A DNA stretch of 64,000 bases, from positions 310,001-374,000 of the forward strand of contig NW_013171819.1 in assembly GCF_000151665.1 (NCBI RefSeq), given 5' to 3'. Below, one piece after another: positions 4,888-64,000 of this stretch. This DNA is from Blastocystis hominis. Its lineage: Eukaryota; Sar; Bigyra; Opalinata; Blastocystidae. Position numbers and translations under genes: made by a program. How positions within the stretch are numbered: position 1 is the stretch's first letter; each line of letters begins with the position of its first letter. The notes beneath the pieces are model-generated. The model searched no databases. It was not told where the DNA came from and saw only the letters and a program-made list of their open reading frames with translations.

Positions 4888-6186
4888 GAAAATGATGTGA
4901 AGAAGGAGATTGTAGGTTGTGTAGAATTGGGAGTAAGGAGTGAATGATTTCGGGGTGTGTAGAGTTGTTTTTATCTATAAGAATGGAATGAGAAAGAGTC
5001 GAGGGGAGACAGGGATATTATGGTGAATTGGTATTGTATAAAAATGATTGTGAAGGGTACTGAATTGATATGACGTTGTAAGGTGAATTAGGGAAGGTTT
5101 TGAAAGGAGTCCGTATAAAGAGATTTGACACAGAAAGAATAGGGACCTATGGGAAGTAGTATGCACGCTATACAAAGAAAGTGTTGGGATGATGTAGTTT
5201 TTGCCTAATATTGATTAATGGCTAATTTTTCTTGCTATACTTAACAGCAATAAGTACAGTAGAGACACTTTACTTTCACACTTGAAATAATAATAATGCA
5301 AGATTTTAAGGAAAGTCGAACGACCGCACAAAATAACTATTTTACACATTTTATTTACATGTACTCATATATAATTTAGGAAGTGTAATTCATCTAACAG
5401 CTTTTGAGGGTAATAGCATTGATAAACAATTGCACCAAAATAGATTTCGTACAAAGAGGTTAGTTGTTGTACCAATAGTAGGATTGATATAAAAAGCAAG
5501 ACATCATTTGCAAAAAGTGAAGAATTGCTGTGTCATATCTAGAAAACTACAAAGATACCACAAAATAACTCGTAGAAACTATTTAATCAGTATTTCTTAA
5601 ATAATCATGTTATTTATTAAAGAATCTATGTAGGAGAATAGAATACAAATATATAAAATGTATAAACACTTCATACTATTCTTGACACATGACTTAATAG
5701 ATGGAGTCATGTGGAGATTAATTCTCATTTGAGTACTAATAAGCAATATATTGGTTGAAATCTATATTCTGTGTAATGGTTATTTCATCTGATAAGGTTT
5801 TCAGGTACCTACAAAAACGTGTTAAAAGAATCAATAATTAATGAGGCCAGATAATAGTTACAATGCACATTTTCGAAATAATACAAAAAAGGCATTAACT
5901 TTTGAAATAATGTATAATACTCAAACTAGCGAAAATCTCTTGTATGATAAAGTGAATATTGTATATCTAATACAATATCATCATTTCATTCGAATAGCTA
6001 GTTCGTATCTTTTTTTACAGAGAAACTACAGATTATAAGAATATTACATTAATAGTCATTCCTAGCGGTAAAACAATAATAGATATGAAATAAATCATAA
6101 ATCCTCTGAAATTGTACACGTCACGTGCTTGTATCCATTTCAAATCGATTGACTTCTCCCGATATTATACATTATTTTTTATTTCA
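4888..6186. other. AT-rich stretch with no supported gene
   Basis: About 1.3 kb of strongly AT-rich sequence between eIF1A and the LRR gene. Frames longer than about 60 codons lack homology and splice context. A forward frame from 6112 runs in phase into the LRR gene, so its first exon may start up to 75 nt earlier than I annotate. I see no tandem repeat, RNA gene or mobile element. Confidence 0.4.
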
Positions 6187-9100
6187 ATGCAAGCGATGAT
6201 GGATCTTGTTAATTCTTCTCTTGGGAACTTCTTCATTGATAGTTCTATTATTCAAGATGTACAGGGGCAGGTGAACGTTGAGTGGAAACCAAATGGCTGG
6301 CTTTCATATATACAGAGTAATAGAGAATGTGTAGTATTGCAGTTCAATAATGGAGTGTTTATGAATCAAGGATTTGTCCTCAATGAGCAGAAAGTGTTGA
6401 AAGTGTTTGGAAATCACCAAATTGGTGACATTCCATATAATGAAAAATGTTTGGTAGAAGGAATCGTGGATTTGGATCATGGAAGTCGATTTGAAGGCTT
6501 GATATTAGCAGAAGGCAAGTTTGGAATTCCATTTGGATATGGTGAAATGTATGATGATGATGGATTCTTGGTGTACAAGGGTATAATGATCAATTGGAAG
6601 CGATTTGGATATGGAACGAGTTATCATGATAATGGAGCGATTGAATATGAAGGATATTGGTGTGATGATAATCGATTTGGAAGAGGAAAAGTGTATGATC
6701 GATCAGGCAAGTTTGTAAAAGAATGTTTCTGGTATAATGGAATTGAAAGTGATATTGAAGAAACCTATGAAGGTGATGGTAGTCAGACAACAAATATTGG
6801 AATCAAGCATTTGAAACTGACTAACAATTGTGTATTGGTTGATTGGGATGTTTCATGGTTCTTGAATTTGGAATCAATCGAAATCGGTAATGATTGTTTT
6901 GGATTAGTGAGAATATTCCAAATCGATGGATTGAATCGATTGAAATCTATCAAAATCGGCAAGAAATCATTTACTCATAAAAAGAATGATATTGGTATAT
7001 ACAAATCGAAATCATTTCACATATTGAATTGTGAATCATTGGAATCCATTCAAATTGGTGAATATAGTTTCACTTATTATGGAGGCAAATTTGAATTGAA
7101 GAATCTACCAAAATTACAATCTATTCAAATTGGTTCAATTGGAAATGATTCATACAATTTTGTTTTTAGTTCATTTGTAATTGAAGGTATTGAATTGATA
7201 TTGCATATTTGTAATGCATAGATCTTCCAAATCTACAATCCATTACATTAGGTAAACTTGTATTCCATAGATCATTGTCTACAGTAATTGAAAGTATTGA
7301 ATAAATTGGAATATAATGATTGATGTAGATCTTCCATCATTACAATCCATTACACTTGGTCAACATTCACTTTGTGGAAATAATGATGATTCTTCATGTT
7401 CATTGATAATGCGAAGTATGAATGAAATGATTCAAAATGATTCAATGTAGATCTTCCAAATTTAACATCCATCAAATCTGTTGGAGGAAGTTTCTATAAT
7501 ACTCGTTCATTGACATTAGAAAGTATTTATCAATATTGAATATTGATTATATGTAGATATTCCAAATCTTCGAGATGTCAAACTGAATGATTCATTTAAA
7601 AATGTGATACATCCAGTTATACAAAGTATTTTTGTAACTATATTATGAATTTAGATGTTTCTCAATTACTATTTCCAAAGGTCTATTATTATGAATACGT
7701 TCAATCAATTGATTCAACAATCACGTCGATAATACTTCCGAATTGGACTTGTAATGATATTAATTATACAATATTTGATTTCTCTCGATTTATTCAAGTT
7801 GAATCAATTGAAATCGGTGATAATAGTTTTAGTTCGGTTCAAACATTCAAAATCGATGGATTGAATCGATTGAAAAGTCTGAAAATCGGCAAGAAATCAT
7901 TTACTTGCAGTAAAGTAGCCAAAATGGATAAGACATTGAATAAATCCGTAATTACAGATTGCATTATTTCGAAATCATTTCACATATTGAATTGTGAATC
8001 ATTAGAATCCATTCAAATTGATGAATATAGTTTCAGTGATTTTGGAGGCGAATTTGAATTGAAGAATCTACCTCAATTACAATCTATTCAAATCGGGACA
8101 ATTGGAAATGAATCTTATAATTTCTATTCACTATTATATCATATAAAAGGTATTGATACAAAATTGTATATTTGTAATGTATAGATCTTCCAAATCTACA
8201 ATCCATTACATTAGGTGATAAAACGTTTAATAATACTAAAATATTGAATTTATCATCATTAGACAATTTGGAATCAATTGAAATTGGTAATGATTGTTTT
8301 AGTTCGGTTCAAACATTCCAAATCGATGGATTGAATCGATTGAAATCTATCAAAATCGGCAAGAATTCATTTACACAAAACAATCAATCAGAGAGAATAT
8401 ACTACTATTCTTCTTCAATTTCAGTAAATAGTGATGTTAATAAATCATTCCACATATTGAATTGTGAATCATTAAAATCCATTCAAATTGGTGAATATAG
8501 TTTCAGTGATTTTGGAGGCGAATTTGAATTGAAGAATCTACCAAAATTACAATCTATTCAAATCGGGACAATTGGAAGTGATTCATGCAATTTTCCTAAT
8601 AGTTCATTTGTGATTGAAGGTATTGATATGATAATGTAAAATTTTAATATATAGATCTTCCAAATCTACAATCCATTACATTAGGTGATAAAACGTTTAA
8701 TAATACTAAAATATTGAATTTATCATCATTAGACAATTTGGAATCAATTGAAATTGGTGATGATAGTTTTAGTTCGGTTCAAACATTCAAAATTGATGGA
8801 TTGAATCGATTGAAATCTATCAAAATCGGTGCTAAATCATTTACTCAAAACAGTCAATCAAAGAGAATTTTTTACTATTCTTCTTTAATTTCAGTAAATA
8901 GTGATATCAACAAATCATTCCACATATTGAATTGTGAATCATTAGAATCAATTCAAATTGGTGAATATAGTTTCAGTGATTTTGGAGGCGAATTTGAATT
9001 GAAGAATCTACCACAATTACAATCTATTCAAATTGGTGAATTTAAAACCACATCATGCAATTTCTCTAATAGTTCATTTGTAAATGAAGGTAGTGACATA

Positions 9101-59261: not shown

Positions 59262-60512
59262 TTACTGTAGGATTTTGATAAGATTCGCGAGAATCGAAGA
59301 AACATCTATGCAGGAAATCAAATCAGTCTAACAATACTCGAAACTGATTTTGATTGAACTCTCATAAATGGAGGATCCAGGAGACCACAAGGTAGATTTA
59401 CATGTTGCGGATTTGGAATATCTTAATATCATCAATATCCCTGATTATATATACTTTCTAGAGTAACCGAACATACATTACTAAAACTATATCTTTTAGA
59501 ATCAATGAATGTTAGATTTGGAAGATCTATAAAGCAAATCATTTACAATCATTTCATTCATACTTCGCATTGTCAAAGAACATGATTCATCATCGCTTCC
59601 ATAGAGTGATTCAAGTCCGAGTGTAATAGATTGTAGTGATGGTAGATCTATTGAAATCATTTCATTTAAAATCATTTCATACTTTCAATCACTGTTGATA
59701 AGGAATCACGAAATGCATTATCACCTAATGCGATAGATTGCAATAATGGTAGATCTAATCATTCAAATATTCAATATCATATCAATACCTCGAATCACAA
59801 ATGAAACATGACAAAAATTACAAGAAATACTTCCAATTATACCAATTTCTATAGATTGTAATTTTGGTAGATTCTTCAATTCAAAGTCGCCTCCAAAATC
59901 ACTGAAACTAAATTGGCCGATTTGAATGGATTCCAATGATTCACAATTCAATATATGGAATGATTTTGATTCATCGTTTCCTTCACTATTCTTTGTCTGA
60001 GTGAATGAATTGTTTCTAATTTCGATAGTTTTCAATCGATTCAATCCATCGATTTTGAATGTTTGCACTGACGCAAAACATTCATTACCGATTTCGATTG
60101 ATTCAACTTGAGTAAATCGAGAGAAATCGAATGTCGTGAAATCAGTATTACTGCAAGTCCAATTAGGTATAATAATGGAAGTTGTGCAAGAATCAAGTGA
60201 TTGAATATAGTCAATGTTATGTATTTCATAAGGAAATAGTAATTGAGAAACATCTAAAGTCAAATGGAATATATTATTAATAATTACTGTTTATTACAGA
60301 ATATGTCATATACTCGAATGAACGAGGTAGATTTACATATTGTGGATTTGGAATATCTTAATATCATCAATATTCAGTATCTTAATTTACTTTCTAATAT
60401 CACTGAACGAGGATAACGGAAGCTAGATCCTTGAGAATCGAGGGATGTTAGATTTGGAAGATCTATAAAGCAAATCATTTACAATCATTTCATTCATACT
60501 TCGAAGTGTCAA
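59262..60512 (-). pseudogene. LRR-family gene truncated at its 5' side
   Basis: A reverse-strand paralogue of the 6.2-12.6 kb LRR gene. It keeps the same exon-unit logic and phase-1 introns of 32-37 nt (60463-60499, 60358-60391, 60254-60287, 59755-59788, 59648-59682, 59527-59563, 59422-59454, 59306-59337). The 3' end is complete: the last exon DVSSILANLIKILQ and a TAA at 59262-59264 match the DVSDILAKKFV ending of the first gene. The open exon starts DVSQLLFPYEIHNIDYIQSL. The homology stops abruptly near 60512, inside the exon preceding the intron at 60463-60499, where the virus-like sequence begins. So the N-terminal MORN part and most of the array are missing here. Confidence 0.8.
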
Positions 60513-60794
60513 AGAGTAGTAGGGAAAAGGCGGAAAACACGCGAAAATCCATTTTCTACCAAATAACCGCGGAAATCATTTTTCGGCCATTTTCTGCCAT
60601 TGTCTACCTGCTCACCTCGATGTCCATAACAAGAAACGCGCGGAAACCCATGGCTGCCAATTTCGGCCAATTTCGGCCAATGTTAACCTGACTTCCATTG
60701 TAGGCCATGGTATGCATGGATGTGATGGGGACAACGAGGGACGACTTCGATTCCTCCCCATTGTCTTGTTGACTAAGGTAAAGAGAGAAAGACC
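60513..60794 (+). repeat. left-edge repeats of the virus-like element
   Basis: The sequence starts AGTAGTAGGGAAAAGG right at the break in the LRR homology. It contains three imperfect, roughly 60-bp units with the shared words CGCGGAAA, CCAT, TTTCGGCCA and TACCTG, including the direct repeat TTTCGGCCAATTTCGGCCAA. Polinton/Maverick elements end in long terminal inverted repeats that begin AG; this edge would fit one end. The other end is outside the window. Confidence 0.45.
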
Positions 60795-62288
60795 ATGCAC
60801 TACTCCATGCTTATTCAAGGCTCACCTACCAACGGCTCATTTACATGGGTTAATCCGTACAAGTACAAGAATCCCTATATCACTTCCATGACTGTCCTGT
60901 TTCATCCTAATGGTTCGATGTTTAATAACGTAGACACGACGAATGTGATTACTAACAGCAATGATGAGACTGTGACAATCCCTGCTGGTTATTACACGAT
61001 CAGTGAGATCATTGCCTTGCTCAATACCATGACCGATACTACATTCTCCATATCGACGAATGCCTCGTCGTTCGGTTGTATTTGGATTCAGTCTCCACAC
61101 ACCATTGACTTCACAGATGCACCTGACATTTGTGAGATCCTCGGCTTCGATGGACGAACGGTCATTCTACCTGCTTCGTTCAGTGGATCGAACGTGATTG
61201 ATATCACGCGAAATCGACAAGTGATCCAGGTCTACTCGACGATCGTGCGATCATCGGACTTGAAGATTGCCAACCAGAACAACAACCTGCTCACCACGAT
61301 GATCATTGACAATCCAACGGCTGACTACGTGCGAACTGTGGAAGACGTGTGTATTCCAATGATCACTCGGTTTGATCAATTGATGTTCGTATTCCGCGAT
61401 ATGGATGGCAAGATGATGCGATTGAACGGCGAATTCGAACTCCAGTTGACGATTGAGGACGTGATGGAGGAAGTGCCTTCATCGATGGGGGAAGCTTCGC
61501 TTCCCCCGGGGGTGACGATGTCACCCCCAACGATTGTCTCTGCAAACCAGTTCAGTATGATGGAAGTGTTCGGTAATACCACCAAGAAGGAAGTGAAGCT
61601 GGGCAATCCTCTCTCGTTCGACCAGTGCTACATCTCGTCTGTGTCGTTGTATACGGACTTCGTGTTGCACAACGTGCCGACTGATCAAATGGTGCTAATC
61701 AATGCTGGCGCTACGATTCAAGAGATCACGATACCACGCGGTGCATACGACATCGAAACGATCATTGCAAAGCTGAATGCAAGTGATGCCCTGTTCGAAT
61801 TGGTGTATAGCGGTGAGAATGCGTTCCACATCACGGTAGATCACTTCTACATGATTGATTTCACGAATGCACCAGAGATCAGGTCAATCCTTGGTTTCGA
61901 ATCGGACATCTTGGTGAAAGGAGTGGATAACCCGAAGCGCTACTACCTGTCTTCCTCGTGTAATCACGTGGTTGTTACTGATGGCACTGTCTCGCACATG
62001 TTGACATTGCCTGTCGGTTACTACACGTTCTCCGAGTTCATCGAGGCTGTCGGTGCTGAGATGGTGAAAGTGCTTCCTCTCATATCCATGACGATCGAGA
62101 ATGATCATGTTCGCTTCAATGTCCAAGCAGACGGATGGTATTTCGATCGATCCAGTGTTGACACGACGATCGATGGTTTTGGTTGGACTCCATCGGGTTC
62201 AAATTGGCATCAACGGTACGCAATCTGTGCATCGAACGACCAGTGGAAGCTTCGTTCAACCCTGAAAGCGATTCCCCTCCTGATATGA
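60795..62288 (+). CDS. virus-like structural protein 1 (Polinton/PLV-type, tentative)
   Basis: An intronless frame of 497 codons. It contains at least two copies of a module: a strand with G-x-Y (IPAGYYTISEIIALLN; IPRGAYDIETIIAKLN; and a partial LPVGYYTFSEFIEAVG), then IDFTDAPDICEILGF or IDFTNAPEIRSILGF. The first copy ends in a FRDMDGKMMRLNGEFELQL strand. This order (Y-rich helix, DFT...LGF, then a [FL]-x-D-x-[DN]-G segment) is what I recall in proteins of Polinton/Maverick and related viruses thought to be minor virion components. No capsid, ATPase, protease or polymerase gene is in view. The stop TGA overlaps the next ATG (ATGA). Two GC-rich hairpins lie in frame at 61487-61528. Confidence 0.55.
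   Translation: MHYSMLIQGSPTNGSFTWVNPYKYKNPYITSMTVLFHPNGSMFNNVDTTNVITNSNDETVTIPAGYYTISEIIALLNTMTDTTFSISTNASSFGCIWIQSPHTIDFTDAPDICEILGFDGRTVILPASFSGSNVIDITRNRQVIQVYSTIVRSSDLKIANQNNNLLTTMIIDNPTADYVRTVEDVCIPMITRFDQLMFVFRDMDGKMMRLNGEFELQLTIEDVMEEVPSSMGEASLPPGVTMSPPTIVSANQFSMMEVFGNTTKKEVKLGNPLSFDQCYISSVSLYTDFVLHNVPTDQMVLINAGATIQEITIPRGAYDIETIIAKLNASDALFELVYSGENAFHITVDHFYMIDFTNAPEIRSILGFESDILVKGVDNPKRYYLSSSCNHVVVTDGTVSHMLTLPVGYYTFSEFIEAVGAEMVKVLPLISMTIENDHVRFNVQADGWYFDRSSVDTTIDGFGWTPSGSNWHQRYAICASNDQWKLRSTLKAIPLLI
61487..61528 (+). repeat. abutting double hairpin inside ORF 1
   Basis: Two perfect 9-bp stems directly abut: GGGGGAAGC/GCTTCCCCC with loop TTC, and GGGGGTGAC/GTCACCCCC with loop GAT. The 42 nt stay in frame (14 codons). 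Confidence 0.9.
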
Positions 62289-63958
62289 CGAATGATCAAG
62301 GTATTGGTGGTCATGCATACATAGGATCAAACACCTTCATTGCGTATGACTGGAAAATGCGTACGAATGATAATCGGTTCCTGCTAAAGCCTCTCGCGAC
62401 ATACACGATGCGCCTAGCTGATGGCTCAGTACTCGATAGTGGTGAATTCTACATAACGGACGATACGTCTACCCCGATCAAGATGAATACTCTTACAACC
62501 ACATGTATTAATGAACTCAATGCTCGATATGCGAGTGCTATGGAACTACCTCCATCTCACCAGAATGCGATTGCGTGGACGGTGAATGACAATAGAGAAA
62601 GCATGTCATGGACTGCGAAGGACTATGCACCAGAATTGGAATTGCATATCACATCGGATAATACAGGTGACTTGGTGTCATCGAATGGTTCTTCGATCGG
62701 ACCTTGGTATTCCAAGGATAGTATATATCACACGAAAGTGTTTATCGATACGACGAATTTTATACTTGGAATACGTGGATATGGCGAAAGACCTCTCACA
62801 ATCCAACGAGGTCATTATAGCGCTATTGATATCGTGAATATGATCGCTAATGTGATCAATAAGATATATGTAGATGCATCTCTCGGAGGGTACTTGGTAT
62901 ATGTCATTGCAGATAATGGTGGTCGAGTACGAATGGGATGTCGAAATGGTACAGAACCACGATTCATATTGTTTTGTGATAATCCATGTTTCAAGATTAT
63001 ACCCGGACCATACGCTGAACCAGGTGGTGTGTATTTGTCTTGTTATTTCGAGTTTTATCGCAATTACTACATCAGGATGCCCGAGTTGACATCACCTTAC
63101 GAGTTTGCGATGGCAAACATCGATGGACTGAATGTGACGAATATGATCAAAGGTAGTACGTATTCCGATCGTGCTGTGTCGATCGAATTCATACAACCGA
63201 CACGTGTTACGTATGTGGGGAAGCAAAGCTTCCCCGGGGCAGCTTCGCTGCCCCACTATGTGAGGAATGATGAACTTGTTGTTCCATCATTGGCTACCTT
63301 CGTTGACTGGGAACAATCTGAGTCGTACACGGCTAACACGACGATTCGCTTCCCGTACGGAATGATGACACTGGACGAAGAGGGAAGCAGTGCTTCCCCC
63401 GAGACTGATATCACGTACACAGATGACGTTCAGACATTCACGTGGACCATACCATCACGGTTGACACAGGCTGACATGATATGGCACATGAACCAGTGTT
63501 TTGACTCGGCTACACTGAACATACGATGGAAAGCTGAGACAGATGGGTACTACATTCACGCAGACTACGTGTTCTCGTTGAGTGGTAACCTGGGAACCAT
63601 CGTTCCCGCTTCAGGATCGCAATCGCATACATGGCGTATCCCTTTCGACGATGGTGTGTACTATGCCAACTATGGTCCGATGGTTGCCGAGTATCCTGTC
63701 GATATCACGAACGGTCTATCGAACATACAGCTGTATTGCAACATCGTGAAAAGCAAGACGATACCACTGCTTGCGAATGTCCCGATGGACAGCTTGTACA
63801 AGAATTACTTCTACAAGAATCGCATGTTGGTACCATGTTCTGAATTGCTTGATCGCATCGTGTACGAACTGAAGGACGAAAATGGTGACCCGCTATCGTT
63901 CATTGGGAACGTGTACCTGCTAATCGGATTCACCGTTTCAGGAGGAAATAATAAATGA
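62285..63958 (+). CDS. virus-like structural protein 2 (paralogous modules)
   Basis: An intronless frame of about 557 codons from the ATG overlapping the previous stop. The frame is open upstream to 62183, but the overlapping start is preferred. It begins MTNDQGIGGHAYIGSNTFIA. It has further, more diverged copies of the module (IQRGHYSAIDIVNMIANVIN and a later strand-helix LTQADMIWHMNQCFDS), so it probably arose by duplication of ORF 1-type units. No transmembrane segment or enzyme motif is seen. It contains three GC-rich hairpins. Its TGA overlaps the start of a third frame (ATGA). The function is unknown; a virion surface or vertex protein is my inference. Confidence 0.5.
   Translation: MTNDQGIGGHAYIGSNTFIAYDWKMRTNDNRFLLKPLATYTMRLADGSVLDSGEFYITDDTSTPIKMNTLTTTCINELNARYASAMELPPSHQNAIAWTVNDNRESMSWTAKDYAPELELHITSDNTGDLVSSNGSSIGPWYSKDSIYHTKVFIDTTNFILGIRGYGERPLTIQRGHYSAIDIVNMIANVINKIYVDASLGGYLVYVIADNGGRVRMGCRNGTEPRFILFCDNPCFKIIPGPYAEPGGVYLSCYFEFYRNYYIRMPELTSPYEFAMANIDGLNVTNMIKGSTYSDRAVSIEFIQPTRVTYVGKQSFPGAASLPHYVRNDELVVPSLATFVDWEQSESYTANTTIRFPYGMMTLDEEGSSASPETDITYTDDVQTFTWTIPSRLTQADMIWHMNQCFDSATLNIRWKAETDGYYIHADYVFSLSGNLGTIVPASGSQSHTWRIPFDDGVYYANYGPMVAEYPVDITNGLSNIQLYCNIVKSKTIPLLANVPMDSLYKNYFYKNRMLVPCSELLDRIVYELKDENGDPLSFIGNVYLLIGFTVSGGNNK
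63217..63254 (+). repeat. abutting double hairpin inside ORF 2
   Basis: Two perfect 8-bp stems: GGGGAAGC/GCTTCCCC with loop AAA, then GGGGCAGC/GCTGCCCC with loop TTC. They share arms with the ORF 1 pair. Confidence 0.9.
63382..63398 (+). repeat. single hairpin inside ORF 2
   Basis: GGGAAGC/GCTTCCC with loop AGT, a 7-bp stem of the same sequence family as the two double hairpins. Confidence 0.85.
63940..63945 (+). promoter_or_regulatory. Shine-Dalgarno-like AGGAGG before ORF 3
   Basis: AGGAGG sits 9 nt before the ATG at 63955. It could be chance, or a sign that this block is translated by bacterial-type initiation. Confidence 0.35.
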
Positions 63959-64000
63959 ATCTAGTGTTCAACATTGCTCGAACGTACGAACATGAATTTA
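63955..64000 (+). CDS. start of virus-like ORF 3, cut by the window edge
   Basis: An ATG overlapping the previous TGA opens MNLVFNIARTYEHEF and runs off the window. It is too short to classify, but the chained ATGA arrangement repeats that between ORFs 1 and 2. Confidence 0.4.
   Translation, partial: MNLVFNIARTYEHEF

Follow-up and report, generated by a model that had tools for sequence, protein, structure and literature searches.

The element at the right end of the window

The window analysed here, a stretch of 64,000 nucleotides from Blastocystis hominis (contig NW_013171819.1; C5:310001-374000, a C5 coordinate being the window coordinate plus 310000), carries at its right end the first 3.5 kb of an element of about 22.3 kb in all, which we read, with a probability of roughly 0.88, as the left part of a DNA virus of the Polinton/Maverick type, an integrating element that codes for virions and replicates itself; it would be endogenous to Blastocystis and one of dozens of related copies. 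The element opens with a terminal inverted repeat (60515..60723, + strand; tip AGTAGTAGG) that is 82% identical to its partner, which ends beyond the window at C5:392808, and the host-like AT-rich flanks on both sides are alike (C5:369.3-370.5 kb versus C5:395.0-395.9 kb, 75-79%). The original prediction, made from the letters of the window, had placed the start of an undescribed virus-like element at 60513, two bases from this tip, and had proposed following the contig rightward; an integrase, a family B DNA polymerase (PolB), a capsid protein, an ATPase and a protease candidate lie there between the inverted repeats. The repeats and flanks speak for the host-joined endogenous element that it had envisaged, and the position of the continuation between host-like flanks speaks against phage genes unjoined to host sequence, which it had named as a possible contrary outcome.

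The integrase (327 aa, C5 385485, +) and PolB (1476 aa, C5 388137-392567, +), both sought in the continuation, match Pfam rve (9.9e-13) and DNA_pol_B_2 (1.5e-14), respectively, over the cut-off; the catalytic motifs of PolB are present in 17/17 copies and, to judge from its sequence, it belongs to the organellar/viral type of family B polymerases. The sought capsid protein (431 aa, C5 382122-383417, −) has a predicted double-jelly-roll fold, as expected for a Polinton/Maverick capsid. For the two other genes anticipated, an ATPase and a protease, candidates were found by motif and not by family: the 447-aa ATPase (C5 380018-381361, −) has P-loop motifs, Walker A- and B-like, a weak terminase match (4e-4) and no Pfam match to an FtsK or A32 family, and the 129-aa adenain-like protease candidate (C5 378502, +) has H-D-Q-C invariant in 19/19 sequences, neither the protein nor 10 relatives having significant family matches.

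Two long open reading frames (ORFs) occupy the left end on the + strand, as originally described: 60795-62288 (497 aa) and 62162-63955 (598 codons stop to stop; 591 aa counted from 62183). They belong, however, to one broken gene, since the matching frame is open for at least 1000 aa in 42/86 places of the same genome, with stops inside the match in 3/42. The first part of this penton-like gene runs over 60795..62193 (residues 1-466; the listed ORF continues out of frame to 62288) and the second, in another frame, over 62162..63958; the break lies near 62.19 kb, intact copies exist, and the window copy probably does not encode the protein whole.

In an intact copy (L017), residues 1-250 align with residues 250-480 (z score 17; reached in 0/500 shuffles) and with a 231-aa ORF further right (C5 374284, +; z 8; 0/500), and residues 760-end align with the same ORF (z 16; 0/500) and with residues 1-250 (z 4; 1/500). 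The repeated modules of the original prediction are thus above chance for part of the gene (4/10 pairs by shuffling), but not for the remaining 6/10 pairs, including all those with residues 480-760 (z 0.6-1.7, no clear excess over chance). Profile comparison of the segments gave E values of 1e-11 (A/B), 9e-11 (A/D), 1e-5 (B/C) and 1e-8 for both A and D against the 231-aa ORF, 4e-4 to 8e-3 at low probability for the other 5/10 pairs, and 0.16 or worse in 5/5 comparisons with a capsid-protein profile as control. Penton-type structures are matched by the fold predicted for a relative from metagenomes that shares 94% identity with an intact copy, and a penton (vertex) protein with repeated modules is the best structural reading of the product of the window ORFs; the minor structural protein first proposed is here corrected to a putative vertex protein. 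The window ORFs have no significant match to any family in Pfam (best 0.031) or PHROGs (best 0.025), a match to a cellular family being the other outcome named as contrary, and the penton and capsid profiles found no match among solved-structure sequences.

Five penton-gene matches stop at residue 326 or 327: L083 (C14:277501-281500), C13:847417, C24:732272, C34:290913 and C24:3944. In L083, the one of the five that was read, the beginning of the penton gene and the final part of the 231-aa gene are joined in a single 401-aa open frame; these matches represent a recurrent small derivative.

Copies, selection and neighbouring sequence

In the genome searched (18,707,701 bases, 40 contigs), the penton gene was found in 86 places (87 matches) on 30 contigs, the capsid gene in 76 places (83 matches), PolB in 32 long matches (the best 32 of 296 candidates scored) and the integrase in 124 matching stretches, some of them halves of one place. 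Penton and capsid genes are paired in the right order at 54 places, PolB being added at 23, and the span from penton start to PolB end is 20.0-22.4 kb. With rough bounds of 54 x 12.6 kb and 86 x 22.3 kb, the family is estimated to occupy 0.7-1.9 Mb, or 4-10% of the genome.

Both tips are visible in 17/20 fetched copies (left tips in 17/20, right tips in 20/20), and an exact 6-bp target duplication flanks 7/17. In these seven the best aligned blocks of the repeat pair are 99.7, 99.7, 99.1, 96.8, 96.4, 95.9 and 90.1% identical, the 95.9% case (C10b) being a shifted block whose end-anchored counterpart gives 85.1%; in the 10 copies without duplication the repeats are 80.5-97% identical or broken, so that duplication and repeat identity together fail to sort the copies cleanly. 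Duplication 6-mers are also shared between different copies, ATCCAT by the left side of C15 and the right side of C38 and GATTTG by the left side of C21 and the right side of C36; these two matches, against about 0.3 expected, point either to exchange between copies or to assembly misjoins. The window copy is itself probably a mosaic of two elements, through such exchange or a misjoin: its first 290 bases on the left are identical to the copy at C33:9995-10284, yet the penton genes of the two share just 92% protein identity, and the window copy has no 6-bp duplication and terminal repeats of only 82% identity.

Selection on the genes was assessed by the ratio of nonsynonymous to synonymous substitution rates (dN/dS), for PolB and the capsid gene in stop-free copies only. 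The median for PolB is 0.106 (0.051-0.154) in 136 pairs of 17 long open copies (dS 0.10-0.68), with stops in 0/32 of the long matches mentioned above; for the capsid gene it is 0.163 in 66 pairs of 12 copies (dS 0.05-0.46), internal stops being present in 6/67 genes near full length and absent from 61/67; and for the penton gene it is 0.328 (5 copies, 10 pairs). Silent-site divergence with little protein change indicates that the lineages diverged while functional, and these sequences suggest that capsid function is under selection now, or was until recently.

Three further features of the copies were observed. Integrase matches outnumber penton places, many being about 80-91% identical, and both integrase places read (L082, L084) have large internal deletions; the surplus probably represents an older, decayed generation of the family. 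Of 71 penton places, 21 are found no more than 30 kb from a contig end, a zone that holds about 9% of the length; either the element inserts subterminally or the assembly breaks at repeats. In 12/32 long PolB matches (on C3, C4, C7, C12, C13, C14, C21, C22, C24, with two, C25 and C39), the first ~60 residues stand in a separate piece ~105 bases upstream, as a common intron or a frame change in one PolB subfamily would produce.

Apart from the penton-like gene, every gene of the window copy is a single open frame. The third gene start of the original prediction is borne out by a 110-aa ORF on the + strand (63955-64287, C5 373955; 63955..64000 in the window) that ends beyond the window and recurs as L015:383-715. 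Besides the genes described above, the element has a 778-aa ORF (C5 375022, +), coiled-coil-like by eye, a 344-aa ORF (C5 377444, +), a 330-aa KilA-N protein (C5 378989, +), a 177-aa ORF (C5 381500, −), a 433-aa ORF (C5 383456, +), perhaps a fibre as a guess, and ORFs of 206 aa (C5 386419, −), 170 aa (C5 387047, −) and 142 aa (C5 387610, +). In library searches of uneven coverage, not each ORF against each library, the ATPase, the protease and the 177-, 206-, 170- and 142-aa ORFs had no function-naming match apart from the weak terminase one.

An AT-rich gene family (window 6094-7218 and 59763-60263; L011:9245-10000) surrounds the insertion site and recurs in other parts of the window; it has MORN-like motifs by eye and LRR-like ones (weak Pfam match, 0.008, for 59763-60263). 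A search of the window and of L010/L011 against Rfam yielded no match that reached the gathering score. The motif TGTTTGTTTGTT, which we take to be the Blastocystis polyadenylation motif, occurs once in the host part of the window, fewer times than expected. The genome is that of Blastocystis, probably of subtype 7 (ST7). The barcode primer BhRDr has three exact matches, every one of them within an SSU rRNA gene, and the ST7 marker pair SB155 (primers and subtype as tabulated in PMC10988960) delimits a 650-base amplicon with both primers oriented as expected; RD5, the partner of BhRDr, has no exact match in the three SSU loci.

Nature of the element and rival explanations

The Polinton/Maverick-type reading, already favoured by the original prediction, is supported by the rve integrase, PolB, the predicted double-jelly-roll capsid protein and the inverted repeats. 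Under this reading, linear double-stranded DNA with inverted repeats would be inserted by the retrovirus-type integrase with duplication of 6 bp of target, a step for which repeats, duplications and integrase gene are all observed, and would be replicated by its own PolB, whose gene and motifs are present, probably by protein priming from the repeat tips. The P-loop ATPase would then, after cleavage by the adenain-like protease, package the DNA into a capsid whose shell would consist of the double-jelly-roll major capsid protein and whose vertices would be of penton type, an assembly suggested by predicted genes and folds; the window ORFs would correspond to the vertex protein, disrupted here by the frame change.

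Mavirus couples an rve-type integrase with a protein-primed PolB, and the element could accordingly be a mavirus-type virophage, an integrated satellite forming virions only upon giant-virus infection of Blastocystis. The capsid and penton models indeed have the capsid proteins of Sputnik and mavirus and the mavirus penton among their best structural matches, and the mavirus host Cafeteria falls with Blastocystis in the same NCBI clade, Opalozoa; these structural matches cannot discriminate, nevertheless, since the 50 matches listed in each case include no Polinton capsid structure. A search of the genome for the giant-virus capsid PF04451 gave no match, but none was obtained in any control genome either. 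Section 5 of PMC4028283 states that every virophage has its penton gene directly upstream of the capsid gene; here eight genes and ~8 kb separate the two, on opposite strands, and the virophage is considered improbable. The same arrangement departs from that of Polintons, in which, according to the same section, PX typically adjoins the capsid gene on its upstream side or lies one gene away, a proximity that is not strictly defining.

The abundance of copies in one genome, the three deletion derivatives read and the lack of particle evidence here would also suit a self-synthesising transposon that has lost virion production and carries its capsid genes as passengers. The capsid dN/dS and the 61/67 stop-free capsid genes argue against this, as selection on the capsid favours a virus over a capsid-less transposon, short of proof of virions, and so do relatives 34-94% identical on contigs of public assemblies, several of which, at 22-24 kb, are about as long as the element; such a transposon is judged unlikely. 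An assembly artefact, or host sequence joined to a contig from a contaminating virus or phage, might be suspected from the 10/17 copies without matching target duplication and from the C15/C38 and C21/C36 matches, which could be misjoins through 22-kb repeats, but it is very hard to reconcile with 86 places on 30 contigs, seven exact duplications, decayed and deleted copies and the similar host-like sequence flanking the window copy on both sides. A phage as such was rejected in view of the host flanks, the target duplications and the many copies in a eukaryote.

Returning to the Polinton/Maverick-type virus, a fuller picture can be offered tentatively, its parts taken jointly having somewhat less than an even chance: a distinct Blastocystis lineage of integrating Polinton-type viruses, still moving and probably still making particles, whose vertex is an unusually large penton with repeated penton-like jelly-roll modules and a single-module 231-aa paralogue, perhaps a turret, whose relatives circulate in metagenomes, and which forms a sizeable part of the ST7 repeat fraction.

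Novelty, significance and known systems

In the literature searched by title and abstract, no Blastocystis Polinton was found, and Blastocystis stands alongside Polinton or Polinton-like in just one mention, in a reference title. Within the available text, Blastocystis does not occur in the main text of Bellas et al. 2023 (PMC10120064), nor transpos-, virus or integrase in Gentekaki et al. 2017 (PMC5608401), nor Polinton or endogenous in PMC12835684; the latter credits Starrett et al. 2021 with RNA viruses associated with Blastocystis, which misfits the title of that paper. The available main text of the ST7 genome paper (PMC3129679), which reports 25% repeats and introns sharply around 32 bases, has transpos- once and virus not at all. 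Neither capsid nor penton relatives were found in IMG/VR (pattern and tblastn searches), nor capsid-protein relatives in GTDB contigs, collections that may lack records close to this genome. The element originally called undescribed thus appears to be of a known kind, a Polinton/Maverick-type endogenous virus, and a novelty for Blastocystis; its vertex gene and the order of its genes are unusual.

Blastocystis is a very common gut protist of people, and a multi-copy, virion-coding virus family in it is a concrete candidate, testable in culture. Virus-like particles in Blastocystis, reported decades ago and described as mainly overlooked, include particles of 30 nm with a dsRNA fraction and others of up to 200 nm, according to the available text of a review (PMC12835684). 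No link to these particles is claimed, because their sizes do not obviously fit a 22-kb double-jelly-roll virus. The family could serve as a strain marker, drive genome rearrangement or add a level at which viruses and protists interact in the human gut.

In summary, the element resembles Polinton/Maverick elements in having an rve integrase, PolB, a P-loop ATPase candidate, a protease candidate, a predicted double-jelly-roll capsid protein and a putative penton-type protein within ~22 kb, as well as inverted repeats and the 6-bp target duplication that is the rule in that group (in 7/17 copies, not in the window copy), and differs from them in its penton-like gene, which is ~1000 codons long, module-repeated and at the far left end. 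With mavirus and the virophages it shares the predicted capsid and penton folds and an integrase with PolB, although the penton and capsid genes are not adjacent and no helper virus is known. Adintoviruses are midsize linear DNA viruses that likewise have an integrase and PolB. Unlike the present family, they are animal-tropic, by the title of Starrett et al. 2021, whereas the Polinton-like and endogenous protist viruses of Bellas et al. 2023 (PMC10120064), as described in its available text, are, like it, integrated, capsid-coding and multi-copy in protists.
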